NCBI GenBank assembly: GCA_903847975.1
Contig: CAINFC010000316.1
Span: 1-53,534, forward strand
DNA length: 53,534 nucleotides
Source: an uncultured Acidobacteriota bacterium
GTDB taxonomy: Bacteria; Acidobacteriota; UBA6911; CAINFC01
Direction of reading: 5' to 3'
The notes beneath the pieces are model-generated. The model was given only the letters and a program-made list of their open reading frames with translations. It was not told where the DNA came from and did no database searches. A program made the position numbers and the translations under genes. This document shows positions 34,435-53,534 of this stretch, in pieces (the first letter of the stretch is position 1; each line of letters opens with the position of its first letter).

Positions 34435-35430
34435 CTACCCGCGTTCAAAGCAGAACACCTGGTTGCGGCCGGAACGCTGCGCCTCGAAAAGGGCCTGCTT
34501 GACCGTCTGCACCAGCCTCCGATTGGCTTTCCCTTCGTGCAGGTACACAGCCAGCCCGGTGCTGATCGTGGTCTGAATCCGCTCCGAAGTAAAGCTGCTT
34601 TCCTGTACCGACCGCTTCAGCCGGTCGGCATATTCCAGCGCCTCCTCAAGCTGGGTATTGGCACGCAGCAGGATGAACTCGTCAAATCCGTAGCGCCCCG
34701 CCGAATCGATGTGCCGCAGAGTTCCCTTGACCAGTTTTCCGAGTTCCGCCAGAAACTTTCCGGCCAGATCCAGGCCGTAGGTGTTGACGATGCTCTTGTA
34801 GTTGTCGACATCCAGGAGGAGCAGGGCAAAATTTTCACGGGTATCCTCCACCCGCTCCATGGCGGCGTTCAGCCGTTCCAGGAAATGGCCGTAGCGGTGC
34901 AGCCCGGTTTCGTGGTCGACAATTTCCAGCCGGACATTGTCGTCGTGCAGCCGGGACTTGTGGATGGCCAGAGCGGCCATATCGGCGAAGGCCTGCAGGC
35001 CGGGCAGATCTTCGGCCCGGAGGCGCTCCTTCTCCCGGCTGTCGACATGCAGAAAGCCGAGGGTCTGATGATCGATGGCCATCTGCAGGCAGGCACAGGA
35101 AGCGAAGGGATGCTCCAGCTGGAGCTCCTGGGCCAGCACGCCCTGCCCGGAAGCATCGCTCACCAGAATCGGCTTGCCGGTCCACAGCAGTTCTCCGATG
35201 GCGCCGGTGGCCAGCTTCCGGCGGTATACCTTGCAATAGGTGTAGGAAATGCCGTGGCAACACTCAATGCTCAGGTATTCCGTCCTGTTGTCGATGAGCA
35301 CAACCGCGCAAGTTTGGCAATGGAACAGCCCGACGACCTTCTCCACCAGGGTGTGTAATACTTTCTGGTACTGGTTGGTAGCGGTAGCCAGATGCAAAAC
35401 ATCCGATAGACAATTAAGGGTGGTATTCAT
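34435..35430 (-). CDS. GAF-GGDEF protein with degenerate active site
   Basis: This 331-aa protein has a GAF domain (residues ~20-160, with several Cys/His such as ECCHGISYTYC and CACLQMAIDHQTLGFLHVDS) and a GGDEF-fold domain (~165-331, starting DHETGLHRYGHFLERL). Where diguanylate cyclases read GG(D/E)EF, this one reads GFDEF (in GRYGFDEFILL), so the second Gly that packs on the GTP is lost. The metal-binding Asp in LLLLDVDNYKSIVN is kept. Cyclase activity is doubtful; GTP or c-di-GMP sensing is possible. No ribosome site precedes the ATG, and a -10 box ends seven bases upstream, so the mRNA is probably leaderless. Confidence 0.88.
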   Translation of the reverse strand: MNTTLNCLSDVLHLATATNQYQKVLHTLVEKVVGLFHCQTCAVVLIDNRTEYLSIECCHGISYTYCKVYRRKLATGAIGELLWTGKPILVSDASGQGVLAQELQLEHPFASCACLQMAIDHQTLGFLHVDSREKERLRAEDLPGLQAFADMAALAIHKSRLHDDNVRLEIVDHETGLHRYGHFLERLNAAMERVEDTRENFALLLLDVDNYKSIVNTYGLDLAGKFLAELGKLVKGTLRHIDSAGRYGFDEFILLRANTQLEEALEYADRLKRSVQESSFTSERIQTTISTGLAVYLHEGKANRRLVQTVKQALFEAQRSGRNQVFCFERG

Positions 35431-36795: not shown

Positions 36796-36926
36796 GACGA
36801 CAGGTCTTTCCGCTTTTCTTCCCGCTCTTCCTTTCTTCCTGTAAGTCCAATCATTTCGCAGGAAGAAGGGAAGACAAGGAAGGAAGAAAGAAGCCGTCCG
36901 TATATTTCGGAAGGGAATAGCGACTT
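36796..36926 (-). repeat. Hairpin repeat family F, copy 1 (3' of fliC)
   Basis: The sequence from GACGACAGG through a CTTTTCTTCCCGCTCTTCCT arm, a variable loop, a complementary GGAAGA-rich arm and a conserved GAAGCCGTCCG...TTTCGGAAGGG tail matches 48804-48936 at about 75-80% by eye. The arms can fold into an imperfect hairpin of roughly 25-30 pairs. It lies about 95 bases downstream of the fliC stop codon. The rest of 36606-37019 shows no gene. Confidence 0.75.
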
Positions 36927-37019: not shown

Positions 37020-37919
37020 TTACTGCAGCAGCCGGGTGACGAGCTGGGCGCTCTGGTTGGCCTGGGCCAGCGAGGCGATGCCGGTCTGGTTCAGGATCTG
37101 CCACTTGGTCAGGGCCGTCACTTCGATGGCCATGTTGGCGTCGCGGATTTGCGATTCGGCGCCGGTCAGGTTCTGCGACTGCGTGGCCAGCACGTTGACC
37201 GTGGCCTGCAGCCGGTTGTTCATGGATCCCAGGCGCGCCCGCTGCGAGGAAATCATGCTGAGGGCGAACGTCAGGGCGGTCAGGGCGTGGGCCGAATTGG
37301 AGGAGGTCAGCATGTTGACGTCATCGATGCTCGAGGGATCCGGGGTGGTTCGGGCCCGCGTGAAAGTATTGGTCGACCAGTCCCAGCTGCCGTCGGAGAT
37401 GCCGAGAATCGCCGTATTGATCGGTGGCGTGGAAAAGGTGATAAAGGAGCTGTTGTAGGTGTCTCCCACAAAGACTCCCAGCGAGACCCCGCTGCCTGAG
37501 GAGTTGAGCAGCTTTCTGCCGTTGAAGCTGACGGCGTCGAACATCCGGTTGATTTCCTTCTTGATCTCCTGGAACTCGATATTGATCGGGACTCTCTGGG
37601 CGCTGGCCACGGTGCCCGTGGCACCCTGCTCCGCCAGGGTCACGGCCCGGTGGAGCATGGCGGTGATCTGCGCCAGGGCTCCATCCATCACCTGCAGATA
37701 GCCGATGCCGTCGTTGGCGTTGCGCGTGGCCTGGTCGAGCGCCAGGATCTGGCCTTTCAGCCCGTCGGCAATGCCCAATCCGGCGGCATCGTCCGCGCCG
37801 GTGGCAATCCGCAATCCGGAGGACAATCGGAAGAGAGTTTTTTGTAAACCCACATTGGTCACATTCAACTGATTGTTCGCCGCGATGCCGGCGATATTGT
37901 TTAAAACACTATTTGCCAT
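37020..37919 (-). CDS. fliC: Flagellin
   Basis: This 299-aa filament protein has the conserved D0/D1 ends. The N-terminus runs LQKTLFRLSSGLRIATGADD then AAGLGIADGLKGQI, and the C-terminus ends in LAQANQSAQLVTRLLQ. The central variable part (~residues 140-215) is short, so the outer D2/D3 domains are minimal. GGAGGAAGG precedes the ATG. It starts 78 bases past the flgE stop and may be expressed from the flgD promoter or from its own; I found no sigma-54 or clear sigma-28 site in that gap. fliS and fliD are not nearby. Confidence 0.96.
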   Translation of the reverse strand: MANSVLNNIAGIAANNQLNVTNVGLQKTLFRLSSGLRIATGADDAAGLGIADGLKGQILALDQATRNANDGIGYLQVMDGALAQITAMLHRAVTLAEQGATGTVASAQRVPINIEFQEIKKEINRMFDAVSFNGRKLLNSSGSGVSLGVFVGDTYNSSFITFSTPPINTAILGISDGSWDWSTNTFTRARTTPDPSSIDDVNMLTSSNSAHALTALTFALSMISSQRARLGSMNNRLQATVNVLATQSQNLTGAESQIRDANMAIEVTALTKWQILNQTGIASLAQANQSAQLVTRLLQ

Positions 37920-39678: not shown

Positions 39679-39694
39679 AGCATTTTCCGTGCCA
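39679..39694 (-). promoter_or_regulatory. Sigma-54 promoter for flgD-flgE
   Basis: The minus strand reads TGGCACGGAAAATGCT, with a perfect TGGCAC at -24 and GC at -12 in exact spacing. The predicted start near 39668 leaves a leader of about 38 bases to flgD. An ATTCCGAC/GTCGGAAT inverted repeat (39836-39868), 170-200 bases further upstream, is a possible enhancer. The remaining part of 39631-40243 holds only this and repeat D. Confidence 0.7.
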
Positions 39695-42479: not shown

Positions 42480-43829
42480 TCAGCGGTTGATGAGCTGCAG
42501 CAGCTGGCCGGCCGATTCCGCCAGGACCGTTTTCTGTTCCGAGTCCTGGCGCAGGTAGCCGTTGATCAGTTCCATTTTGCGGATGGCCTCATCGATGCGG
42601 GGATTGCTCCCGGATACATAGGCTCCGATATTGATCAGGTCCTCCGCCTGCTTGTACACCGAGAGCAGCTCGCGCATCCGTCCGGCACTCTGCCAGTGCT
42701 CGCGGGGAGTCAGCTGGGGCATAAGCCGGCTGATGCTGGCCATCACATCGATGCACGGGTAGTGATTTTTCCAGGCCAGCTGCCGGGAGAGAATGATGTG
42801 GCCGTCGACCAGAGCGCGCACGGCATCGGAGATCGGTTCGTTGAAATCGTCCCCTTCCACCAGCACGGTATAAAAGGCGGTAATGCTCCCCCGGCCCCGG
42901 AAGTTGCCGGCCCGCTCGATGAGCCGCGGCATGAGCGCGAAGACCGAGGGAGTGTATCCCTTGCTGGTCGGAGGTTCTCCGGAAGCCAGGCCGACCTCCC
43001 GCTGGGCCATGGCCAGGCGGGTGATGGAGTCCATGAACAGCAGCACATTCTTGCCCTGGTTCTTGAAAAATTCGGCGATGGCACCGGCGGCCAGGGCGGC
43101 GCGGATTCTCATCAGCGGGGTACAGTCGGAGGTGCTGACCACCACCACGCTTTTGGCCAGCCCTTCGGTGCCCAGCTCCTTGGTAATAAATCCTGGAACT
43201 TCTCTTCCCCGTTCTCCGACCAGCCCGATCACGTTCACATCGGCGGAGGCAAAGCGGGCCAGCATGCCCAGCAGGGTGCTTTTGCCGACCCCGCTGCCCC
43301 CGAAAATGCCCATGCGCTGGCCTTTGCCGGTGGTCAGCAGCCCGTCGATGGCCCGTATGCCGGTGCTGATCGGCTCGGCAATGGATTCGCGCTCCAGCGG
43401 ATTGGTCGGCGCCGGGTAAAGGCTTACTTCGTCCGTATAAAGAATCGGCCCTCCGGAATCCAGCGGATCGCCCAGCCCGTCAATCACCCGTCCCAGCATC
43501 TGCGGGGAAACCCGGATGCTGGGAGTGGGCTTGCGGGCAATGATCCGGTCGCCCAGCTTGACCCCGGTAATGGTGTGCAGCGGCATGGACAGGATGCGCT
43601 GATCCCGAAAGCCGACCACCTCTACCGGAACCGACTGCGGACCGTCTTCCGTGGGAATCTCGCATACCGTGCCGATGGAGACCGGCGGCCCCTGGGATTC
43701 GATGGTCAGCCCGACCGCCCGCTTCACCGTTCCGATTTTAACCAGGGTTTCGGTGGAGGCCAGGCTGTTCCAGTAGTGGCTCAGATCCAGGCGGGGTTCG
43801 ACGCCCGGCACGGAATTGTGTAAAGCCAT
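42480..43829 (-). CDS. fliI: Flagellum-specific ATPase FliI
   Basis: This 449-aa export ATPase is related to F1-beta. Walker A is GIFGGSGVGKSTLLGM, followed by VIGLVGERGREVPGFI. The Walker B region is VLLFMDSITRLAMAQREVGL, then ASGEPPTSKGYTPSVFALMP. It energises the flagellar type III export apparatus at the membrane with FliH and FliJ. Length is normal. It lies 12 bases downstream of fliH. Confidence 0.97.
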   Translation of the reverse strand: MALHNSVPGVEPRLDLSHYWNSLASTETLVKIGTVKRAVGLTIESQGPPVSIGTVCEIPTEDGPQSVPVEVVGFRDQRILSMPLHTITGVKLGDRIIARKPTPSIRVSPQMLGRVIDGLGDPLDSGGPILYTDEVSLYPAPTNPLERESIAEPISTGIRAIDGLLTTGKGQRMGIFGGSGVGKSTLLGMLARFASADVNVIGLVGERGREVPGFITKELGTEGLAKSVVVVSTSDCTPLMRIRAALAAGAIAEFFKNQGKNVLLFMDSITRLAMAQREVGLASGEPPTSKGYTPSVFALMPRLIERAGNFRGRGSITAFYTVLVEGDDFNEPISDAVRALVDGHIILSRQLAWKNHYPCIDVMASISRLMPQLTPREHWQSAGRMRELLSVYKQAEDLINIGAYVSGSNPRIDEAIRKMELINGYLRQDSEQKTVLAESAGQLLQLINR

Positions 43830-43841
43830 GCCATCTTCTCC

Positions 43842-44561
43842 CTAGCCGGCCTTTTCTCCGAAAAAGCTCTTTTCGATTTCCTGAAACTGCTGGCTCAAAC
43901 GCCCGTCCACGATCCCCATGTCGCTTTCCACCAGGAAGCCGCCGCGCTCCATCCCGGCATCGGCCACCCACTCCAGAGGGATGCCCAGGGAATCGCTTCC
44001 CGGACCCGGAGAAGATGTTTTTTGAAGGGCCGCCAGGTCGGCGGGATGAACTTTGACCCGCACGCGCCGGGCATCGGCAACATGTTCCAGAGCCACACGG
44101 ATCATGGCCAGGAGCAGGTGCGAATCCATACGCACCTCGTGATGCGTTATTTTTTTAGCCACGGCCATCGCCAGGGCAGCCACCTGCCGCTCGCACTCTT
44201 CCATCAGCCGCCTTTGAAAAAGCTGCAGCTCCTGGACCGACCGCTCCAAGGCCCGGGCAGCGCTCTCCTCCTGTCGCACCAGCAGCTGCTTGCCCCTTTT
44301 CTCCGCCTCCTGAAATCCGCGCTGATAGGCATTGTTTTCCCGGAGCGCAACCTCCTCCTCCGACACGCCCATCAGGATCACCGGCTGGGGAGCCACCGGC
44401 TCCTGGACCACCGGATCTTCCAGAGCGAAGGCGGCGGCATCCTCCTCTGTGGGGGGCTCCTCGGCGGGAGGGGGTGACAGGAACCGGTGGATGTCCGGGA
44501 AAGTGTGCGCCGCCACCGGAACCGGATCCGCTCCCTGTTGCTTGAACACCCTAGACGACAT
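43842..44561 (-). CDS. fliH: Flagellar assembly protein FliH
   Basis: This 239-aa protein has an acidic, Pro/Glu-rich N-terminal half, a Glu/Gln-rich helical middle (EEVALRENNAYQRGFQEAEK) and a conserved C-terminal part (ALAMAVAKKITHHEVRMDSH, RVKVHPADLAALQ, GIVDGRLSQQFQEIEKSFF). FliH regulates the FliI ATPase. Its start overlaps the fliG end by 11 bases, indicating coupled translation. Confidence 0.92.
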   Translation of the reverse strand: MSSRVFKQQGADPVPVAAHTFPDIHRFLSPPPAEEPPTEEDAAAFALEDPVVQEPVAPQPVILMGVSEEEVALRENNAYQRGFQEAEKRGKQLLVRQEESAARALERSVQELQLFQRRLMEECERQVAALAMAVAKKITHHEVRMDSHLLLAMIRVALEHVADARRVRVKVHPADLAALQKTSSPGPGSDSLGIPLEWVADAGMERGGFLVESDMGIVDGRLSQQFQEIEKSFFGEKAG

Positions 44562-45558
44562 ACTGTTCCCCGCCGCCCTTGATGTCGATAATTCCCTGTT
44601 CGTCCAACCGCCGGATGATCTCGATGATATTCTGCTGCGCGGTCTCCACGTCCTTGACCTTGATGGCGCCCATATATTCCATATCTTCCTTGAGCAACCC
44701 GACGGCGCGCTCGGACATGTTGCGGAAGAAGCGCTGCCGCAGCTGTTCCGAGCAGCCTTTCAGGGCGGTGGCCAGATCCTTCTTGTCCACTTCCTTGAGC
44801 AGCTCCTTGATGGCCATGTCGTCCAGGCCCATGATGTCATCGAAGACAAACATCAGGTTGCGGATATTGATGGCCAGATTCGGATCCTTCTCTTCGATCT
44901 TCTCCAGGATGCCCTTGCCGCTCAGCCAGTCCATGCGGTTGAAAAGCTCGGCCACGGCCCGCACCCCGCCGTAGGACTCCCGGCTGAAGTCACCGACAGC
45001 CTCCAGCTTCTGGCGCAGAATGACCGTGATCTTCGAAATGATGTCCTGGGATATCTGCTCGATGTTGGCCATGCGGATGGCCACATCGGCGCGCAGGTTG
45101 GGCTGGAACTGGGTGATAATCTGCGCGGCCTTGTGCGAGGGCAGGTGGGCCAGGATCAGGGCGATGGTCTGCGGGTGCTCGGATTCGATGAATTTGGCCA
45201 GCTGCTGCGGATCGGCTTTGGCCAGGATATCGAAATTGATGGGACCCAGGGAACGGGTTACCTGGTCGAGCAGCTTGCGGGCCAGGTCGGTGCCGTAGGT
45301 TTTCATCAGCACCTTGCGGGCATATTCCACTCCGCCCTGGGCCACGAACTGCTGGGCGATGCTCATCTGGTGGAATTCTTCCAGCACGGTTTCGGCTTCG
45401 CGCGGAGCGATGTTGCCGAGCAGGTAGATGGCCTTGGTGAGCTCCTGGGCCTCTTCCTGGCTGAAATACTTCATGACCTCAGCGCTGGTGTCCTCCCCGA
45501 GGAGAACCATGAGGATGGCGGCTTTGCGAATGCTTTCCGGGTCCTTTACGGGCGACAT
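44551..45558 (-). CDS. fliG: Flagellar motor switch protein FliG
   Basis: This 335-aa rotor protein couples stator force to the C-ring. The N-terminal part is IRKAAILMVLLGEDTSAEVM. The middle carries LAKFIESEHPQTIALILAHL, the EHPQ motif. The C-terminal torque helix region has MFVFDDIMGLDDMAIKELLK, with charged residues expected at the stator interface, and FFRNMSERAVGLLKEDMEYM. It lies six bases after fliF. Confidence 0.97.
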   Translation of the reverse strand: MSPVKDPESIRKAAILMVLLGEDTSAEVMKYFSQEEAQELTKAIYLLGNIAPREAETVLEEFHQMSIAQQFVAQGGVEYARKVLMKTYGTDLARKLLDQVTRSLGPINFDILAKADPQQLAKFIESEHPQTIALILAHLPSHKAAQIITQFQPNLRADVAIRMANIEQISQDIISKITVILRQKLEAVGDFSRESYGGVRAVAELFNRMDWLSGKGILEKIEEKDPNLAINIRNLMFVFDDIMGLDDMAIKELLKEVDKKDLATALKGCSEQLRQRFFRNMSERAVGLLKEDMEYMGAIKVKDVETAQQNIIEIIRRLDEQGIIDIKGGGEQYVV

Positions 45559-45564
45559 AATCTC

Positions 45565-47385
45565 TTATTCCTGCTTAAAAAACCAGGTGCGCAGCAGCTG
45601 CGCCACCGCTTCCGGATTTTCTGCAGCCATCTGGTTGATGCGCTTTTTAATCACCGACGATTTTTTGGCGTCGATATTGATCTCGCTGGCAGCCAATTCG
45701 TTCTCCAGCTGGGCTTCCAGGTCCTTTTCCACCTCCGCCAGGCGTCGGGGAATGTTTTCCGCCGCAACCTGGTAGGCACCGGAAGGGCCCAGCTCCGCGG
45801 CCGACAGGGTCTCCGGAAGGCCGGGAGTCATTCCCCCCGGCTGCCCGCCCAGGGCAGGCAGCCCTTCCGGCAGCCCCTCCGGAACCGCCTCCGGCGCCTG
45901 CTCTGCGGTTTCCGGCAGCAGCAGCGGAGAGGGAATCTCCGCGGGCAGGGGCTCGGGGGCAATGGTCCGGAATATGCGGCGCTGGAAGGGGAGAAAAATC
46001 GTCAGGTAAATCATCAGGATCAGCAGCGCCAGGAAAATATACCGGGAGTTGGGCTGCACGTAGTCGAAATAGTAAGTCCGCCACAACCGCTCCGCCTCCT
46101 CCGGCGGGCTTTCCACGGTAAGAAAGGAAAGGTTCTCCACGGTGACCATATCTCCGCGCCCGGCATTGAAACCGACCGCCGCCATCACCAGGTCCTTGAT
46201 TTTCTGGATTTCCTGCGGGGTGCGGGCCGTGTAGCTGACGGTCTTCTGCCCCTTGGCATCCTGCGCGGTGACCGCCTTATCGTCGACAATGACCGCCACG
46301 GAAATTTTCTTGATCTGCCCGCGGCCCTGTACCGCCCGACGGACGGTGCGCGGCACCTCAAACTGGGTGGTCTCCTCCTGCTTGTTCCTTTCCCCGGTCA
46401 CCGAAGCCACCGCCTGCGAGGGATTTTGCGGCGCGGCCGGCAGGTTGCCGGGAACCCCCACCACACCGCCGAGCCCCGGACTTCCCCCGGAGTATTCGCG
46501 GTTGACCTGGCGCCGGGAAACCGCCGCCTTGTCCGGATCGTAGAGCTCCGCCGTTTCCTCCACCTGGTCCAGGTTCAGCTCGACAGAGGTACGGGCGCTG
46601 ACTTTTCCCGCCCCGACCACCGGCTCCAGAATGGAGACGACCTTGGAATTCAGCTCGTTTTCCATCGAGGCCTTGGCCTCCAGCTCCGGCTTGGACAGCC
46701 CGGGGGCCTGATCTTCTTTCAGCGGGACGGAAAGGACCTTGCCGCGGACATCCATGATGGATATATTTTCCGGCTTCAGCCCGGGTACCGCGCTGGCCAT
46801 CATATTGGTAATGCCGATAATGCTTTCCTTGGCCAGGCCGCGGCCGGTCTTGAGCTTTACCACCACGGACGCCTTGGCCGGCTCCTCCTGCTCCCTGTAG
46901 AGCGCCGCCTTGGGCAGCACCAGGTGGACACGGGCCGAGGCCACTTCCTGCAGGCTGGCAATGCTCCTGGAAATCTCCCCTTCCAGCGCCCTGCGGAAGT
47001 TGACCTGTTCGATGAACTCCGACAGCCCGAAGTTGGTCCGATCGAAAATTTCGAAACCGATTTTGCCGCTCTGGGGAAAACCTTCGGCGGCCATTTGCAC
47101 CCGGAGCTCGTCCACCTGGGAGGCCGGTACGCTGATGGCCGTCCCGCCGGCTTCCAGGTGAAATGGAATCTTCTGGGTTTTCAGCCGGTTGGCAAGAACG
47201 CCGGCATCCTCCGGATTCATGCCGGAATAGAGGGTCTGGTAAGTTTCCTGGCCGGTATAATAAATAACGCCCGCCAGCCCCAGGACGATCGTCAGGAGCA
47301 TGGCACCGAGGCCGATCCGCTGGGCGCGAGTCAGCTTTTCGAAGGCCTCGGTCATTTTTTGCATGCGATTGGTTTCATCCGCCAT
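45565..47385 (-). CDS. fliF: Flagellar MS-ring protein FliF
   Basis: This 606-aa protein forms the MS ring. The first transmembrane segment is GLGAMLLTIVLGLAGVIYYT (~residues 24-45). Ring-building motifs include YQTLYSGMNPEDAGVLANRL, QVNFRRALEGEISRSIASLQ and ARVHLVLPKAALYREQEEPA. The second transmembrane segment is YIFLALLILMIYLTIFLPF (~residue 455). The C-terminal tail (AENPEAVAQLLRTWFFKQE) binds FliG. It lies about 80 bases after fliE. Confidence 0.97.
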   Translation of the reverse strand: MADETNRMQKMTEAFEKLTRAQRIGLGAMLLTIVLGLAGVIYYTGQETYQTLYSGMNPEDAGVLANRLKTQKIPFHLEAGGTAISVPASQVDELRVQMAAEGFPQSGKIGFEIFDRTNFGLSEFIEQVNFRRALEGEISRSIASLQEVASARVHLVLPKAALYREQEEPAKASVVVKLKTGRGLAKESIIGITNMMASAVPGLKPENISIMDVRGKVLSVPLKEDQAPGLSKPELEAKASMENELNSKVVSILEPVVGAGKVSARTSVELNLDQVEETAELYDPDKAAVSRRQVNREYSGGSPGLGGVVGVPGNLPAAPQNPSQAVASVTGERNKQEETTQFEVPRTVRRAVQGRGQIKKISVAVIVDDKAVTAQDAKGQKTVSYTARTPQEIQKIKDLVMAAVGFNAGRGDMVTVENLSFLTVESPPEEAERLWRTYYFDYVQPNSRYIFLALLILMIYLTIFLPFQRRIFRTIAPEPLPAEIPSPLLLPETAEQAPEAVPEGLPEGLPALGGQPGGMTPGLPETLSAAELGPSGAYQVAAENIPRRLAEVEKDLEAQLENELAASEINIDAKKSSVIKKRINQMAAENPEAVAQLLRTWFFKQE

Positions 47386-47464
47386 AACGTTCCACTTCCT
47401 TGATTTTCGCCGTGACTTCCCTGTCCCGCCGGAGCGCTTTCGAAAAGATGCCGGTCAGCCGGCT

Positions 47465-47782
47465 TCAGGCCTGCATTCTCATGATCTCCTGGTAGGCCTG
47501 GACCAGGCGGTTGCGCACCTGCAGCATCATCTGAAAGGATACATCCGCCTTGTTCACCGCCAGCATGATGGAATGAATGTCGGTGCTTTTTCCCGCCATG
47601 AAATTACGAATCTGGGCATCCGATTGGCTTTGAACCTCGTTGACCTGGTTTACGGCTTCCTTCAGAAAATCGCCGAAGGAAGAAGTTTTTTCGGCTTGCC
47701 CGGTGGCGGGGGAGGGTACAGGCTTCGACAGCTCCGGAACATTCAAAATTCCGGGCAGCTTACCGATGGTGGGCCCTTGCAT
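47465..47782 (-). CDS. fliE: Flagellar hook-basal body complex protein FliE
   Basis: This 105-aa protein is the adapter between the MS ring and rod. The C-terminal part DIHSIMLAVNKADVSFQMML then QVRNRLVQAYQEIMRMQA is typical, with SSFGDFLKEAVNQVNEVQSQ before it. It sits between flgC and fliF, as in many flgBC-fliE operons, with about 90 bases after the flgC stop. Confidence 0.95.
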   Translation of the reverse strand: MQGPTIGKLPGILNVPELSKPVPSPATGQAEKTSSFGDFLKEAVNQVNEVQSQSDAQIRNFMAGKSTDIHSIMLAVNKADVSFQMMLQVRNRLVQAYQEIMRMQA

Positions 47783-47872
47783 GGCTTTACTTCTCCTTCC
47801 GTCCTACGGGAATTCCCCGTCGGCCTTTATTAAGAATACTGCTTTTCAAGTTGAAAATTCCAGGGCGGCAAC

Positions 47873-48313
47873 CTAAGTTCGTCCCAATTCAATGGAGCGG
47901 GTGACCATTTCCTTCAACACCCCCATCCCGGCCAGCATGGCCTGGAAAGAGCGGGTCGTGGCCAGAAGATCGGTCATCTCCGCCGCCGGATCCACATTCG
48001 GCAATGAGACGTAGCCGTCCTTATCCGCATCGGGATGCGAGGGATCGTACTTTTTGAGCGGATCGCTTTTGTCCTCGACAATCCCGGCGACGCGGACGGT
48101 GGTCAGCGGCCGGTTGACTTCATCATTATAAACGTTGCCGAAGGAGGAATCCGAAGGAACGGCTTCAAAAATGGTGCTGCGGCGGCGGTAGGGTCCGCCT
48201 TCCGGCGTGCGGGTCGTCTGGGCATTGGCCAGATTGGTGGATATCGTTTCAAAACGCTGCCGCTGGGCGGTCAGGCCTGCTCCGAGAACGGTTCCGGCAT
48301 CCAATAAACTCAT
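47873..48313 (-). CDS. flgC: Flagellar proximal rod protein FlgC
   Basis: This 146-aa rod protein has the family N-terminus GAGLTAQRQRFETISTNLAN then AQTTRTPEGGPYRRR. The C-terminal part contains YVSLPNVDPAAEMTDLLATT then RSFQAMLAGMGVLKEMVTRS. It begins two bases after the flgB stop, with a GAGGG ribosome site within flgB. Confidence 0.96.
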   Translation of the reverse strand: MSLLDAGTVLGAGLTAQRQRFETISTNLANAQTTRTPEGGPYRRRSTIFEAVPSDSSFGNVYNDEVNRPLTTVRVAGIVEDKSDPLKKYDPSHPDADKDGYVSLPNVDPAAEMTDLLATTRSFQAMLAGMGVLKEMVTRSIELGRT

Positions 48314-48315
48314 GA

Positions 48316-48711
48316 TTACCCTCTTGTATCGTTGATACTGCTTCGGATCAGGCGCAGCTTCTGCTGCATAACCTGAATAATGACATTGAACCGGGTGGAG
48401 GCGTTGCTCATGGCCCGCAGCTCCAGGTCCAGATTCACATTGTTCTGGTCCGGCCGGACCGCCAGGCCCTGCATGAATTCCGCAGAGGGCAGGCCCGTCG
48501 CTTGAGTGAGTCTCTCCGGCGAAGCCTGCCCTTTCTCGGCACTTTGAACCAGCTCTTCCATGTGCTTTTCAAAGGGGATGTCCTTGGCCTTGTACCCCGG
48601 GGTATCGATCTGCGCCAGATTTTCCATGCGCAGAACCTGTCTGCGGGCGGCTCCGTCCAGGTACCGCTCCATCAGGGCCAGGGTAGTGACTGTTGGTATT
48701 TGATTTGCCAT
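48316..48711 (-). CDS. flgB: Flagellar proximal rod protein FlgB
   Basis: This 131-aa rod protein has RMENLAQIDTPGYKAKDIPF near the N-terminus and the C-terminal helix region VNLDLELRAMSNASTRFNVI then IQVMQQKLRLIRSSI. GGAG precedes the ATG. It is the first gene of the main flagellar unit, which runs through fliK, and has a sigma-54 promoter 42 bases upstream. Confidence 0.96.
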   Translation of the reverse strand: MANQIPTVTTLALMERYLDGAARRQVLRMENLAQIDTPGYKAKDIPFEKHMEELVQSAEKGQASPERLTQATGLPSAEFMQGLAVRPDQNNVNLDLELRAMSNASTRFNVIIQVMQQKLRLIRSSINDTRG

Positions 48712-48752
48712 TTTATTGCTCCAACGACAATCGATTCATCCGGAAAATATCA

Positions 48753-48768
48753 AGCAATTAAAGTTCCA
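48753..48768 (-). promoter_or_regulatory. Sigma-54 promoter for the flgB-fliK unit
   Basis: The minus strand reads TGGAACTTTAATTGCT, with GG and GC in exact spacing and TTGCT at -12. The predicted start is near 48742, about 30 bases before the ATG. Confidence 0.72.
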
Positions 48769-48803
48769 CAGAAGCGGCAGTGCTGAAAAAGTCGCACATA
48801 CCG

Positions 48804-48936
48804 GACGACAGGCTCTTTCGCTTTTCTTCCCGCTCTTCCTAATCTTCCTGTGGTCCCTGTCTTTTCACAGGAAGACAGGGAAGAGCGGGGACGAAGAAAG
48901 AAGCCGTCCGTGTATTTCGGAAGGGGAAAGCCACTT
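48804..48936 (-). repeat. Hairpin repeat family F, copy 2 (between regulator gene and flgB promoter)
   Basis: It shares the same flanks and tail as 36796-36926, with a different loop. The arms CGCTCTTCC/GGAAGAGCG and CTTCCTGTG/CACAGGAAG pair within it. It lies 36 bases upstream of the flgB -24 element and about 120 bases past the regulator's stop codon, so it could separate the two transcripts or act as an enhancer region. No gene is seen elsewhere in 48712-49058. Confidence 0.75.
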
Positions 48937-49058
48937 ATTGCTAAGCCTGATGAGGCTCCCCGATGGCCTGAGATTTTCCACCAGGCCCTCGTCTACCGGG
49001 CCGGGGGAAATTAATTCCCGGTTCAGGGAAAAAAAGTCAGGCGCTGGCGGCCGTCCGG

Positions 49059-50348
49059 CTATTGTTCCAGGGCATACTCTTTCAGCTTGTTCCGCAGCGT
49101 TCGGGAGCTTACCCCGAGGATTTCCGCCGCCCGGGTTCGGTTCCCGCCGGTCTCATCGAGGGTATCCAGGATCATTTTCTTTTCCATTTCGGCAATGGTT
49201 CGCGCTTCCGTTCTGCTGAGACCATTCCGGTTTTCCTGCTCCCAGAAAAGGTCTTCCGGACGGATGACCGTCTGGTTTCCGAGCACCAGGGCCCGCTGCA
49301 CGATGTTTTCGAGCTCGCGGACATTTCCGGGCCAGTCGTATTTCTGAAGGAGCTGAATCGTTTCGGGAGCGAACTGAACCTCCCGGCAGCGGTACAGGCG
49401 GCAGAAGTGATCCACCAGCACGGGAATATCCTGCTTGCGTTCCCGCAATGACGGTATGGTCAACGGAACGACATTCAGCCGGTAATAGAGATCGGAGCGG
49501 AAGCTTCCGGAAGCGACCATGTCTCCCAGTCTCCGATTCGTGGTGGCAATCACCCGGACATTCACCGGTATCAGACGGGTGGCCCCGATCCGGTCGATCA
49601 CTCTTTCCTGAAGCACGCGCAAAAGCTTGGCCTGAAGAATGGGCAGCATCTCCGCGATTTCATCCAGGAGAATGGTTCCCCCGCCGGCCAGCTCGAACTT
49701 TCCGGGCTTGGAGGCGATGGCCCCCGAAAAAGAGCCGCGCTCGTGCCCGAACAGCTCCGATTCCAGAAGGTTTTCGGGCATGGCGGCACAATTCAAGGCA
49801 ATGAAGGGCCCCTTGCTGCGCGGGCTCCCGGCATGGATGAAGCGGGCCAGCAGCTCCTTGCCGGTACCGCTTTCCGCCTGGATCAGGACCGTGGCTTCGC
49901 TTTGCGCCACCTGCCGCGCCTTGTCGAGCAGCTCGCTCATGGCCGGACACTGGTGAACCAGGAAGCGGTCGCTGAGGGAATCCCGATCTTTTCGGGCATG
50001 CTTTTCCACGGCGCCCAGCAGCTGGCTGGAAGAAAACGGCTTCAGGAGATAGTCGCGGGCGCCGTAGCGCATGGCCTCCACCGCGTTCTCAATCGTTCCA
50101 AAAGCGGTCAGCAGGACCACCGGCATCCGCGGATCGATCCTCTGGGCCTGCTGCAGCAGTTCGATCCCGTCCATGTGCGGCATGCGCAGGTCGGAAATCA
50201 TCAGGTGGAATTTTTCCTGGGCCAGTTTTTTGACGGCATCCAGGCCGTTGCCGGCGGTAGTCACTTCGTACCCTTTCATTTCCAGGGTGGCATGCATGGC
50301 CGCCAGAAGCTGCCGTTCGTCATCAACAACCAGAATGTGCTCTTTCAT
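49059..50348 (-). CDS. Sigma-54-dependent response regulator, NtrC family (FlrC/FleR-like)
   Basis: This 429-aa activator has a receiver domain (residues 1-~120) with intact acidic pocket and phospho-acceptor Asp53 in LMISDLRMPHMDG. The AAA+ domain (~135-370) has Walker A ESGTGKELLARFIH and Walker B GTILLDEIAEM. A Fis-type helix-turn-helix follows (NRTRAAEILGVSSRTLRNKL). The sigma-54 contact loop reads GSFSGA where GAFTGA is canonical. It follows the kinase by 20 bases and precedes the flagellar genes, so it very likely acts as the flagellar FlrC/FleR-type activator. Confidence 0.93.
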   Translation of the reverse strand: MKEHILVVDDERQLLAAMHATLEMKGYEVTTAGNGLDAVKKLAQEKFHLMISDLRMPHMDGIELLQQAQRIDPRMPVVLLTAFGTIENAVEAMRYGARDYLLKPFSSSQLLGAVEKHARKDRDSLSDRFLVHQCPAMSELLDKARQVAQSEATVLIQAESGTGKELLARFIHAGSPRSKGPFIALNCAAMPENLLESELFGHERGSFSGAIASKPGKFELAGGGTILLDEIAEMLPILQAKLLRVLQERVIDRIGATRLIPVNVRVIATTNRRLGDMVASGSFRSDLYYRLNVVPLTIPSLRERKQDIPVLVDHFCRLYRCREVQFAPETIQLLQKYDWPGNVRELENIVQRALVLGNQTVIRPEDLFWEQENRNGLSRTEARTIAEMEKKMILDTLDETGGNRTRAAEILGVSSRTLRNKLKEYALEQ

Positions 50349-50368
50349 ATCGATCCGTTCCTATCGTT

Positions 50369-51691
50369 TTATGCGGGGATCCTTTCGAAAATCCCCGGCG
50401 CCCCGACTGCGGGCCGGCTTGCATGGTCCGGCGCCTGGCACGGGAAAGAAATCAGGAATTCGGTTCCCTTTCCGCGCACCGATGTGACGGCCATCTGGGC
50501 GCGATGATTTTCCAGAATCTGCCCGACGATCCACAGGCCCAGCCCCGTCCCCCCCCTGCGCTGGGAAAAACCGGGCTCAAAGAAGCGTGGCAGGATTTCC
50601 GGGTCCACGCCGATGCCGGTGTCGGCAATTTTCAGCTGGAGTCGTTGCGAATCCTGCCCGAGGCTCTCCTGCTGCGTTTCCACCCGGATCCGGCCGCCGT
50701 CCGGCATGGCCTGGATGGCATTGAGCAGCAGGTTCAGCATCATCTGGCGCAAGGATTCGGAATGCCCCAGAATCCGGGGGCAGCCGGCCTGCCATGAGGT
50801 CTGCAGCGAGATCCGATTGGCATCCAGCAGCGGCAGGGCAAATTCGAGAACCCCCTCCAGGACCGCATGAAGATCCAGGTCTTCGCTGATGTTCGGGGTT
50901 GGCCGGGCCAGGTGGAGCATGTTGGTGACCAGGGTGTTCAGGGTATTGACCGCCGCCTCGATCTGCCGGCACCACTTGCGGGCCGGGGCCAGTTCGGCCT
51001 GGGACTCATGGATCAGGCTGGCGTACAGGCCGATACTGCTCAGCGGATTCCGAATTTCGTGGGCCAGCTGGGCCGCCATGCCGCCCATGGCCGCCAGCTT
51101 CTCCTGGCGGTTGTTTTCCTCCTCCAGGCGCTTCCGTTGAGTGTCGTCATGGATGACCACGATCACGCCGGCTGCTTTCCGGGCCGTATCGTGAAGAGGG
51201 GAAGATGTAATCACCAGGTGCCGACGGACCTTTCCGGCGTCATCCCGCAAGGAAATCTCTTCGGCCGCCTCCCGCTCGGGGAACTCCAGGCCGGCCCGGA
51301 AAAAATCGGAGCACTGACGGTTTTCCGTCAGCTCCTCCATCCGGCCGACAGGCCGTTCGGGATCCAGGTCGAGCAGCTCCCGGGCGCGGCGGTTGCAGTG
51401 AATGACCTTGGATTCCCTGCCCAGGACCAGCACTCCGTTCGGCTGGCTCTCCAGGATATGCAGGAGCTCATTGCGCATGGCTTCCGTCTCCCGCAGGCTG
51501 GCCCTCAGCTTCGCATTGCTTTCCTCCAGCTCCTGGGACAGATACTCGATCTGCTGCAAAAGTCGGCCGTGAACCCCTTCCAGCGCCTCGCTGGCCCTGG
51601 TAAACATGGCAAAAGCATTCATCAGCTCCTGCGAGCTGGGAGAAAAGCCGTTTTCCGATTCCGTCATACCTGTCAAAGAAGCAATATTCAC
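50369..51691 (-). CDS. PAS-containing sensor histidine kinase (FlrB/FleS-like)
   Basis: This protein of about 440 aa has an N-terminal coiled coil (~25-80), a PAS domain (~75-190, LHILESQPNGVLVLGRES), HisKA with phospho-acceptor His211 (AAQLAHEIRNPLSSIGLY) and HATPase_c (MLNLLLNAIQAMP, DTGIGVDPEIL, GGTGLGLWIVGQILE). No transmembrane segment is visible, so it is probably a cytoplasmic sensor, like FlrB and FleS. The GTG at 51691 has AGGGAGGT five bases upstream; a longer frame to 51748 has no such site. It is driven by a sigma-54 promoter and partners the next regulator gene. Confidence 0.92.
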   Translation of the reverse strand: MNIASLTGMTESENGFSPSSQELMNAFAMFTRASEALEGVHGRLLQQIEYLSQELEESNAKLRASLRETEAMRNELLHILESQPNGVLVLGRESKVIHCNRRARELLDLDPERPVGRMEELTENRQCSDFFRAGLEFPEREAAEEISLRDDAGKVRRHLVITSSPLHDTARKAAGVIVVIHDDTQRKRLEEENNRQEKLAAMGGMAAQLAHEIRNPLSSIGLYASLIHESQAELAPARKWCRQIEAAVNTLNTLVTNMLHLARPTPNISEDLDLHAVLEGVLEFALPLLDANRISLQTSWQAGCPRILGHSESLRQMMLNLLLNAIQAMPDGGRIRVETQQESLGQDSQRLQLKIADTGIGVDPEILPRFFEPGFSQRRGGTGLGLWIVGQILENHRAQMAVTSVRGKGTEFLISFPCQAPDHASRPAVGAPGIFERIPA

Positions 51692-51728
51692 ACCCGACCT
51701 CCCTATCCTGGCTGCCTGGTTCTCCTGT

Positions 51729-51751
51729 TTTGGGACACGGATTCCCAAAAC
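51729..51751. promoter_or_regulatory. Palindrome at the transcription start of the kinase operon
   Basis: TTTTGGGA and TCCCAAAA form a perfect 8-bp inverted repeat with a seven-base spacer. It overlaps the predicted start (about 51748) and the first 20 bases of the leader, so it may be an operator or a 5' RNA hairpin. Confidence 0.45.
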
Positions 51752-51758
51752 CAGAAAA

Positions 51759-51774
51759 GCAACTCCTGTTCCAG
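51759..51774 (-). promoter_or_regulatory. Sigma-54 promoter for the kinase-regulator operon
   Basis: The minus strand reads TGGAACAGGAGTTGCT, sharing TGGAAC and TTGCT with the flgB promoter and with exact spacing. The predicted start near 51748 is 57 bases before the kinase GTG. Confidence 0.72.
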
Positions 51775-51853
51775 ACCGCCAGGATACAGGTCGGATGCGG
51801 AAATTTTCGACCCGCGGGCCCAGGAAGGATCGAAATCCCTAAGCGACTTCAGA

Positions 51854-51859
51854 TATAAT
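51854..51859 (+). promoter_or_regulatory. Sigma-70 -10 box for the divergent regulator
   Basis: A perfect TATAAT lies 26 bases before the ATG at 51886. No convincing -35 box precedes it. No sigma-54 motif is found on this strand. Confidence 0.5.
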
Positions 51860-51885
51860 TGATTTTTTTACTGAGTCAGACTGCT

Positions 51886-53253
51886 ATGCCGGACAAGCTT
51901 ATATTTGCCGGGGTCCTTCAGCCCGGCGACGATCTTCTGTTGCTCCACCTCGGGGAGCAGGGATTTCTCGTCGACTGCCAGAACGATGCCTTTGAAGTTC
52001 TGGATCAGCTTCGTTCCGGTTCCTGCTCCGCCCTTCTCATTTGCCAGCACCTGTTCGGTCTGTCTCCGGAGGAGCTGCTCACGGAGGCGCAGATCGGCTC
52101 CCCGGGCCTGCCCTCTTTTCTGATTCTGGATGCGGGCCGGTCCAGCCGCCTGGAGAAGGGCTCCTGCGAAATCCTGCCGCGCCCGCTCAATCCCGCGGCC
52201 GTGGAAAAGATGCTCCGGCAGACCATCGAAGCGGCGCGCCAAAAGCCGTCCGCCCGTCTTTCCGATGCGCGGATCCCGCAGATCATAGGTCAGTCGGACG
52301 CTATCCAGAAGCTGAAAAAGACCATAGCCATGGTGGCCGGCAAAAACTGCAACGTTCTGATCAGCGGAGAAACCGGAACCGGCAAGGAGCTGGTGGCCAA
52401 AGCGATCCACTACCAGAGCGCGCGCGCCAACCAGCCGCTGGTTTCGATCAACTGCGGAGCCATCCCTGAAAATCTGCTGGAGGACGAACTGTTCGGGCAT
52501 ACCAAGGGGGCTTTCACCAGTGCCCACAACCAGCGCATCGGACGGTTCGAGCAGGCGGATAAAGGCACGCTTTTCCTGGATGAAATCGGAACCATGAACC
52601 ACGACCTGCAGGTCAAGCTGCTGCGGGTTTTGCAGGAGAGGGAATTTCAGAGGCTGGGCTCCAACTCTTCGATTCGGGTGGATATCCGGCTGGTGGCCGC
52701 CACCAATGCGGACCTGCCGGCCATGGTCCAGGAAAAGCGGTTCCGGTCGGACCTGTACTACCGGCTCAATGTGTTCCCGATCCAGCTGCCTCCCCTGCGT
52801 GCCCGGGCCGCGGATATCTCCCTGCTGGCGGAATATTTCCTGGGCCGATTCTGCACCCAGTACCAGACGCCGCCCAAGCGCCTGGCGGAAGATGCATTGG
52901 AAATGCTGGAAGAGTACGAGTGGCCGGGGAACATCCGCGAGCTGGAGAACGTCATGGAAACCGCGGTCATCCTTTCGGACGACTGCCCGGTAATCGACAT
53001 TCCCCACCTGCAGAATATTCCCTCCTTCAGCCGGCCCGTGCGGGAGGTGCCTCCCAGCTCGCTGGACGTGGATGTCAGCCTCGATTTTCCGGAAGAGGGA
53101 GTCGATTTCCAGGAGGTGGTCTTCCAGCTGGAGCGCAAGCTGCTGACCGAAGGGCTGAAGCGCAGCGGGGGAAACCGCTCCCGGGCCGCCGCCTATCTCA
53201 ACCTGAAGCGGACTACGCTCCTGGAAAAAATCCGGCGCCTTCAGCTGGAATAG
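51886..53253 (+). CDS. Sigma-54-dependent activator with degenerate receiver domain (FlrA/FleQ-like)
   Basis: This 455-aa protein has an N-terminal receiver-like domain (~1-110) that lacks the phospho-acceptor Asp; the expected segment reads [17 protein letters not shown]. The AAA+ domain (~130-370) has Walker [17 protein letters not shown] and Walker [14 protein letters not shown]-terminal Fis-type helix-turn-helix follows ([20 protein letters not shown]). The sigma-54 loop is GAFTSA, with Ser for the second Gly. A phosphorylation-independent activator divergent from a FlrBC-like pair matches the FlrA/FleQ type of flagellar master regulator; this role is inferred. The ATG is preferred over a TTG 27 bases upstream. 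A T6 run follows the gene. Confidence 0.9.
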
Positions 53254-53263
53254 CCCCGCCGTT

Positions 53264-53293
53264 TTTTATGTTCTGCCGTCCCTTACGGGACTT
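53264..53293 (+). repeat. Family B start unit, partial copy
   Basis: TATGTTCTGCCGTCCCTTAC followed by GGGACTTG repeats the hairpin-forming start of family B at 339 and about 27260. It follows the stop codon of the divergent regulator closely. Confidence 0.65.
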
Positions 53294-53339
53294 GCCCCGT
53301 TCTGGAGCCGCCCCGGCACACAGAAATCCTTTAAACTGT

Positions 53340-53450
53340 CATCCTGAACGAAGCGCAGCATAGTGAAGGATCCCGTTCGTAATGGTTTCTTTTCAACAGG
53401 ATACAGGTTTCCCAAGGAGGAGATCCTTCGCTGCGCTCAGGATGACGGAA
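53340..53450. repeat. Inverted repeat of the CATCCTGA...AAGGATC type
   Basis: CATCCTGAACGAAGCGCAGC...GAAGGATC near 53341 and GATCCTTCGCTGCGCTCAGG...ATGAC near 53423 are imperfect inverted copies about 45 bases apart. This is a widespread type of bacterial intergenic repeat whose translations give 'CHPERS'-like peptides. No gene is supported here. Confidence 0.7.
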
Positions 53451-53494
53451 AGGGAAAACTGATTGTTTGCGAAGCCATCAATACATATAATCTA

Positions 53495-53534
53495 GCAAAA
53501 AGTCCAGCACCTGTGGATTTCCGTTGGAGAAAGC
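53495..53534 (-). repeat. Dispersed repeat family A, copy 4 (cut by window edge)
   Basis: On the minus strand this reads GCTTTCTCCAACGGAAATCC, then a CACAGGTGC block and an ACTTTTTGC block, matching 1-54. It is truncated at the window end inside the leading hairpin. Confidence 0.8.

Follow-up and report, generated by a model that had tools for sequence, protein, structure and literature searches.

A Probable FlrA/FlrBC-Type (FleQ/FleSR-Type) Flagellar Cascade in an Acidobacterium

A divergent flagellar locus in an acidobacterial genome probably encodes a regulatory cascade resembling FlrA/FlrBC (FleQ/FleSR), a reading to which a probability of about three in four is assigned. From the sequence and its comparison with relatives, this reading is supported by gene content, divergent gene order, conserved sigma-70 and sigma-54 boxes, a dyad conserved in related genomes, and genes for RpoN, FlhF, and FlhG elsewhere in the genome. 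In the proposed mechanism, gene A would be transcribed by the housekeeping RNA polymerase, and the AAA+ ring of its product, as the presumed activator, would open the sigma-54 promoter of the divergent operon that encodes a kinase and a response regulator (RR). The soluble kinase would phosphorylate the RR, and the phosphorylated RR, presumably acting at flgB, would activate further sigma-54 promoters, beginning with that of flgBC-fliEFGHI. An earlier note, made from the sequence alone, had proposed FlrA/FlrBC logic for this locus; it turned out largely right, given the promoters, the divergent order, and a FleQ-type site in relatives, while the order of the tiers was drawn too neatly and A does not qualify clearly as a FleQ/FlrA family member. 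Against the cascade count the absence of the dyad before the kinase in this genome, the departure of the A loop (GAFTSA) from GAFTGA, and the occurrence of an A-group gene in three FliF-negative genomes.

Locus and Genomic Context

The window analyzed is the whole of contig C316 (53,534 bp), part of an 8.13 Mb genome that is 99% complete. The earlier description of the organism as a probable acidobacterium is right, because in an rpoB tree the genome and its class share a clade with the four named acidobacteria used (support 100/98), and Nitrospirota, Zixibacteria, Bacteroidota, Deltaproteobacteria, and further groups lie outside it. That tree had 27 rows; five wrong-frame rows, which made up a false outgroup, were disregarded, and the phylum was called from the 14-row clade that contains every named acidobacterium. 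Mis-binning of the contig was considered and is disfavoured, since related copies of a repeat at 48790–48930 occur on many of the genome's other contigs.

Gene A (51886–53253, plus strand) encodes a sigma-54 activator (Pfam Sigma54_activat, E 5.9e-73) and is divergent from a long series of minus-strand genes. These begin with a soluble PAS-HisKA-HATPase histidine kinase of the FlrB/FleS-like type, with a GTG start (50369–51691; identified by its domains and by orthologs in relatives), and an NtrC-type, FlrC/FleR-like RR with the loop GSFSGA (49059–50348; identified by its domains and receiver residues). They continue with flgB (48316–48711; TIGR01396), flgC (47873–48313; TIGR01395), fliE (47465–47782; PF02049, E 4e-31), the MS-ring gene fliF (45565–47385; TIGR00206), the rotor gene fliG (44551–45558; TIGR00207), and fliH and fliI (42480–44561), each TIGR match being above its cut-off. 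Domain and TIGR profile matches thus agree with the identities first given to A, the kinase, the RR, and flgB. The kinase is called soluble as a strongly hydrophobic segment was looked for in it and none was found. The RR receiver has all five key residues, and the RRs of relatives are about 51–60% identical to it. A soluble PAS kinase and an NtrC-type RR with an intact receiver, as in the FlrBC/FleSR type, are therefore present beside flagellar genes.

Elsewhere in the same genome, RpoN is encoded in a single copy, and contig C160 carries an flhA-flhF-flhG operon. A GAF-GGDEF diguanylate cyclase (34435–35430) is encoded near the flagellin gene (37020–37919), where the flagellar cluster of the window ends. 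An imperfect inverted repeat near the contig end (53340–53445; catcctgaacgaagcgcagc / gctgcgctcaggatgac) looks like another dispersed repeat.

Promoters of the Divergent Genes and the Structural Operon

A sigma-70-type promoter, TCGAAA-N18-TATAAT, lies upstream of gene A (51830–51859, plus strand; 10 of 12 positions matched) and was the only match of the search in 47000–53534. An equally good match occurs in about 0.5% of random 191-bp windows and in 1.7% of shuffled intergenic sequences. Relatives carry TTGACA-N18-TATAAG, TATATA, or TATACA at the equivalent place, with the same 18-base spacing. The window site and the conservation of TTGACA-N18-TATA in relatives together favour the sigma-70-type promoter that had been proposed for A. 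The spacer of this promoter is itself conserved in nine loci (L077, L079, L080, L081, L082, L084, L086, L078, and L087) as AATGTGAATAATGTGAGA, with a TGTGA direct repeat, and looks operator-like there; it is not kept in the window.

Three sigma-54 (-24/-12) boxes lie on the minus strand. The box of the kinase/RR pair (TGGAACAGGAGTTGCT) occupies 51758–51773, one base from the position first reported (51759–51774), with a transcript start expected near 51747. The box before flgB (TGGAACTTTAATTGCT) is at 48753–48768. The third (TGGCACGGAAAATGCT; 39679–39694), before flgD, has the top score in the contig and is followed after about 45 bases by an ATG consistent with the FlgD domain; no such box precedes the gene in the four relatives examined. 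The contig as a whole has no excess of the sigma-54 pattern (24 matches found, 24.1 expected). A hand-made matrix gave p values of about 0.009 and 0.019 for the kinase and flgB positions, which are among the best-scoring in the contig.

The comparison with relatives is what makes these boxes convincing. Eight syntenic same-class loci (L077, L079, L080, L081, L082, L084, L086, and L091), in which A is divergent from the series running from kinase, RR, flgBC, and fliE onward, all have -24/-12 boxes before both the kinase and flgB. When both strands of these loci were searched with the strict pattern TGGCA[CTA]N5TTGC, all 15 matches fell at the kinase or flgB position. The flgB box also occurs in G004, G031, G002, and G057, genomes that carry A on a different contig. 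More distant loci, in G005 and G040, are without both boxes, and a Nitrospiraceae locus is without the kinase box. By this conservation, the kinase and flgB boxes of the window are judged to be real, a distinction from chance that the contig alone does not provide; both promoters of the original proposal are thereby supported.

The genes fliEFGHI follow flgBC without an internal sigma-54 box, in one apparent operon. The original picture of three tiers in map order is consequently too neat, as fliEFGHI lie behind the flgB promoter. With no sigma-54 box between flgB and fliF or fliG, these two would be made together with the rod, and the MS-ring and rotor genes probably do not form an earlier tier here, unlike in Vibrio and Pseudomonas. 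The MS ring and rotor of V. cholerae and P. aeruginosa are assigned to the tier that precedes flgB, and the kinase depends on them for its activity (PMC7064773). Either the flgB promoter would also be served by A, or the checkpoint would work otherwise. Between the RR and flgB lies the 141-base hairpin element mentioned above (48790–48930; RNA minimum free energy -65 kcal/mol, z -5.9). At least 40 copies of this dispersed family occur in the genome, including another at 36796–36915, and the element takes up the interval 22–162 bp upstream from the sigma-54 box of flgB, the place expected to hold an activator site.

Co-Occurrence with Flagella in Relatives

An A-group gene was found in 16 of 20 FliF-positive relatives vs. 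3 of 39 FliF-negative ones (Fisher p 3e-8, with descent ignored); beyond the tree rows, A-group membership was taken from the search E-value. The exceptions, in which FliF was not detected, are G015, G032, and G055 (L087, L089, and L092). The expectation that the divergent pair is conserved with flagella therefore holds for most FliF-positive genomes, these three exceptions being a minority. The same divergent order as in the window was found in eight same-class genomes.

In three relatives, a receiver-domain match lies between A and the kinase (L081, 10794–11114; L086, 8450–8761; L091, 5323–5646) and could conceivably mark a stand-alone receiver gene. In G004 (L155, 4316–4636), the RR comes directly after the sigma-54 promoter, and a kinase match in front of it was not found.

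The Gene A Protein

The product of gene A consists of a pseudo-receiver (residues 1–120), an AAA+ domain (130–377), and a Fis-type helix-turn-helix (HTH). It gives no Pfam receiver match and retains none of the five key phosphorylation residues of a receiver. In its structure model (structures here being predictions from 16 sequences), the receiver fold is present without helix alpha4, and the best PDB matches in a Foldseek search are still receivers. Gene A thus has the non-phosphorylatable receiver-like N-terminal domain that is a trait of FleQ and FlrA. Given that all phosphorylation residues are gone and that helix alpha4 is missing in the model, A is probably constitutive or under a partner such as FlhG, as FleN controls FleQ.

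This condition is unusual within the group. Of the 19 other A-group proteins, 18 have intact receiver residues, with Glu replacing the first Asp in some; the exception, in G031 (L076), has Asp-to-Asn at the phosphorylation site and is possibly a second, milder loss of phosphorylation. The phosphorylation independence that the earlier note had read from the sequence accordingly stands for A itself, with its degenerate receiver, but not as a general trait, being nearly peculiar to this genome. Because the other proteins carry a normal receiver and A is nested among them, the receiver loss is, on phylogenetic grounds, derived and lineage-specific. The A proteins of relatives, mostly with intact receivers, may themselves be phosphorylated.

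The AAA+ sigma-54 interaction domain has intact ATPase motifs, and its loop, GAFTSA, varies from GAFTGA in the second glycine. The loop reads GAFTGA, GAFTNA, GAFTDA, GSFTGA, or GAYTDA in other A-group proteins. When NorR has Asp or Asn in place of this glycine of GAFTGA, its regulatory domain is bypassed (PMC2941729); gene A has Ser.

In a tree built from the AAA+ and HTH domains, A is placed within the acidobacterial A group (99/92), and a position in the RR group is rejected (p-AU 2.6e-06). FleQ and FlrA join a receiver-bearing Nitrospiraceae protein in the same tree (97/93). One clade of all A-group rows with FleQ and FlrA has a p-AU of 0.355 and is absent from the free tree. An HTH signature, RTT[LF]xxK, is common to FleQ and A-group proteins and was not seen in the other activators compared. 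The FleQ domain PF06490 gave no match to gene A at E values up to 10. Matches to PF06490 elsewhere in the phylum were considered as FleQ proteins and rejected: they are marginal, not at gene A, and probably ordinary receivers. LFRSL, the c-di-GMP motif before the AAA+ core, is present in the FleQ chain; it does not occur in gene A, which has RIPQIIG there, and most same-class relatives have FSNLVG or similar.

These comparisons do not establish A as a member of the FleQ/FlrA family. A appears to work like FleQ/FlrA yet is classed, from its sequence features, as a variant rather than a member, as it lacks PF06490, LFRSL, and the binding box in this contig, and the tree is compatible with common FleQ ancestry without recovering it.

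Candidate Activator Sites

A perfect dyad, GTCAA-N4-TTGAC, lies 99–122 bp upstream of the kinase sigma-54 box in all eight syntenic relatives, and 12 exact copies occur in all compared loci vs. 0.21 expected. It agrees with the FleQ consensus GTCaNTAAAtTGAC (PMC6120874). It also matches the GTCA-N6-TGAC/TGGC sites reported for the FlrA/FleQ-like DVU2894 of Desulfovibrio and for flrBC of V. cholerae (PMC4641369). G004 has A on a separate contig, yet its dyad is found 110 bp ahead of the RR operon's sigma-54 box, so the site goes with the target promoter rather than with A alone. In the Nitrospiraceae locus L020, it directly precedes that locus's own activator gene.

In the window's A-kinase gap, no FleQ-type box was found with up to two mismatches allowed, and the FleQ/FlrA binding site GTCAAT-N2-ATTGAC is absent from the contig. 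The whole 8.1 Mb genome has one exact copy of the dyad. A GTCA half-site alone, at 51875–51878, is at the expected distance but weak. Two other candidate operators were considered in the gap, namely a 9-bp perfect dyad around the predicted kinase transcript start (51728–51752) and an inverted repeat (51704–51719/51771–51786); neither is conserved in relatives. The folded leader is no stabler than shuffled sequences.

Alternative Explanations

The missing box and the lost receiver leave some room for a circuit in which A does not control the kinase/RR operon here and serves other promoters, with the kinase driven by the RR through autoregulation or by another sigma-54 activator. The long branch of A in the tree points the same way, as do the 19 sigma-54-activator-like matches, A included, that a search of the genome with A returned. 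Nevertheless, the divergent arrangement and the sigma-54 box persist, A has an almost unchanged recognition helix, and relatives have the FleQ-type box in exactly this promoter, which together make such a rewiring unlikely. Far less credible still is the notion that chance produced the sigma-54 and sigma-70 boxes: sigma-54-like matches are indeed just as numerous in the contig as expected, but both positions are conserved in eight relatives despite diverged spacers, and the comparison contradicts it.

Another question is how A came by its pseudo-receiver. It could be a true FleQ/FlrA descendant that inherited it with no separate loss, and the non-rejection of a single clade with FleQ and FlrA, the common HTH signature, and the binding-site type shared with the relatives would fit. 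The nesting of A among acidobacterial proteins with receivers, the grouping of FleQ/FlrA with a receiver-bearing Nitrospiraceae protein, and the lack of PF06490 and LFRSL make this descent improbable. A bolder reading, held with belief and doubt about evenly balanced, is that the flagellar master regulator of this acidobacterial lineage turned from a phosphorylated RR into a phosphorylation-independent pseudo-receiver independently of FleQ/FlrA, in the same circuit position, with its binding site and sigma-54 contact loop changing too. If so, related genomes would preserve the ancestral state, as the binding site and loop would have changed along with the receiver.

Comparison with Known Systems

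In the proteobacterial flr and fle clusters, such as V. cholerae FlrA-FlrBC and P. aeruginosa FleQ-FleSR, a sigma-54 activator lies beside a soluble PAS kinase and an NtrC-type RR, followed by fliEFGHI, and the locus described here is alike in this. Further likenesses are the sigma-54 promoter on the two-component pair, an RTTLVEK-type HTH, the presence of FlhF and FlhG, and a GTCA-N6-TGAC-type activator site, the last in acidobacterial relatives but lost in this genome. The locus differs in that its genes are divergent and flgBC stand ahead of fliE in one apparent operon. Unlike FlrA and FleQ, the A-group proteins of acidobacterial relatives have a real receiver, LFRSL is lacking, and the window loop is GAFTSA.

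Desulfovibrio vulgaris DVU2894, predicted to be FlrA/FleQ-like, is, in the available part of PMC4641369, likewise a flagellar sigma-54 activator with a predicted yGTCA-N6-TGACr site, and its loop, GAFTHA, is altered at the same GAFTGA position; unlike A, it is described there as a single-component regulator, with no divergent kinase reported in that part. Campylobacter FlgSR and other flagellum-associated two-component systems also have a soluble kinase and an NtrC-type RR governing sigma-54 rod and hook genes, although Campylobacter is without a master regulator (PMC7064773); the main text of that paper does not mention Acidobacteria. Gene A resembles pseudo-receiver regulators (PMC12632262) in having a receiver fold without phosphorylation residues, and differs from them in that its near orthologs, whose neighbouring genes are arranged alike, still have receivers that look functional.

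Conclusions and Perspectives

The FleQ/FlrA logic is known from Proteobacteria, and its gene order, promoters, and binding site are now found in Acidobacteriota, which suggests that the FleQ/FlrA-type circuit is old. A 2025 review treats the control of pseudo-receivers as a mystery and their functional convergence as unclear (PMC12632262). As pseudo-receiver and receiver-bearing orthologs occupy the same circuit here, the states before and after the change are directly comparable. What draws interest is the possibility that receivers of flagellar master regulators have decayed in parallel.
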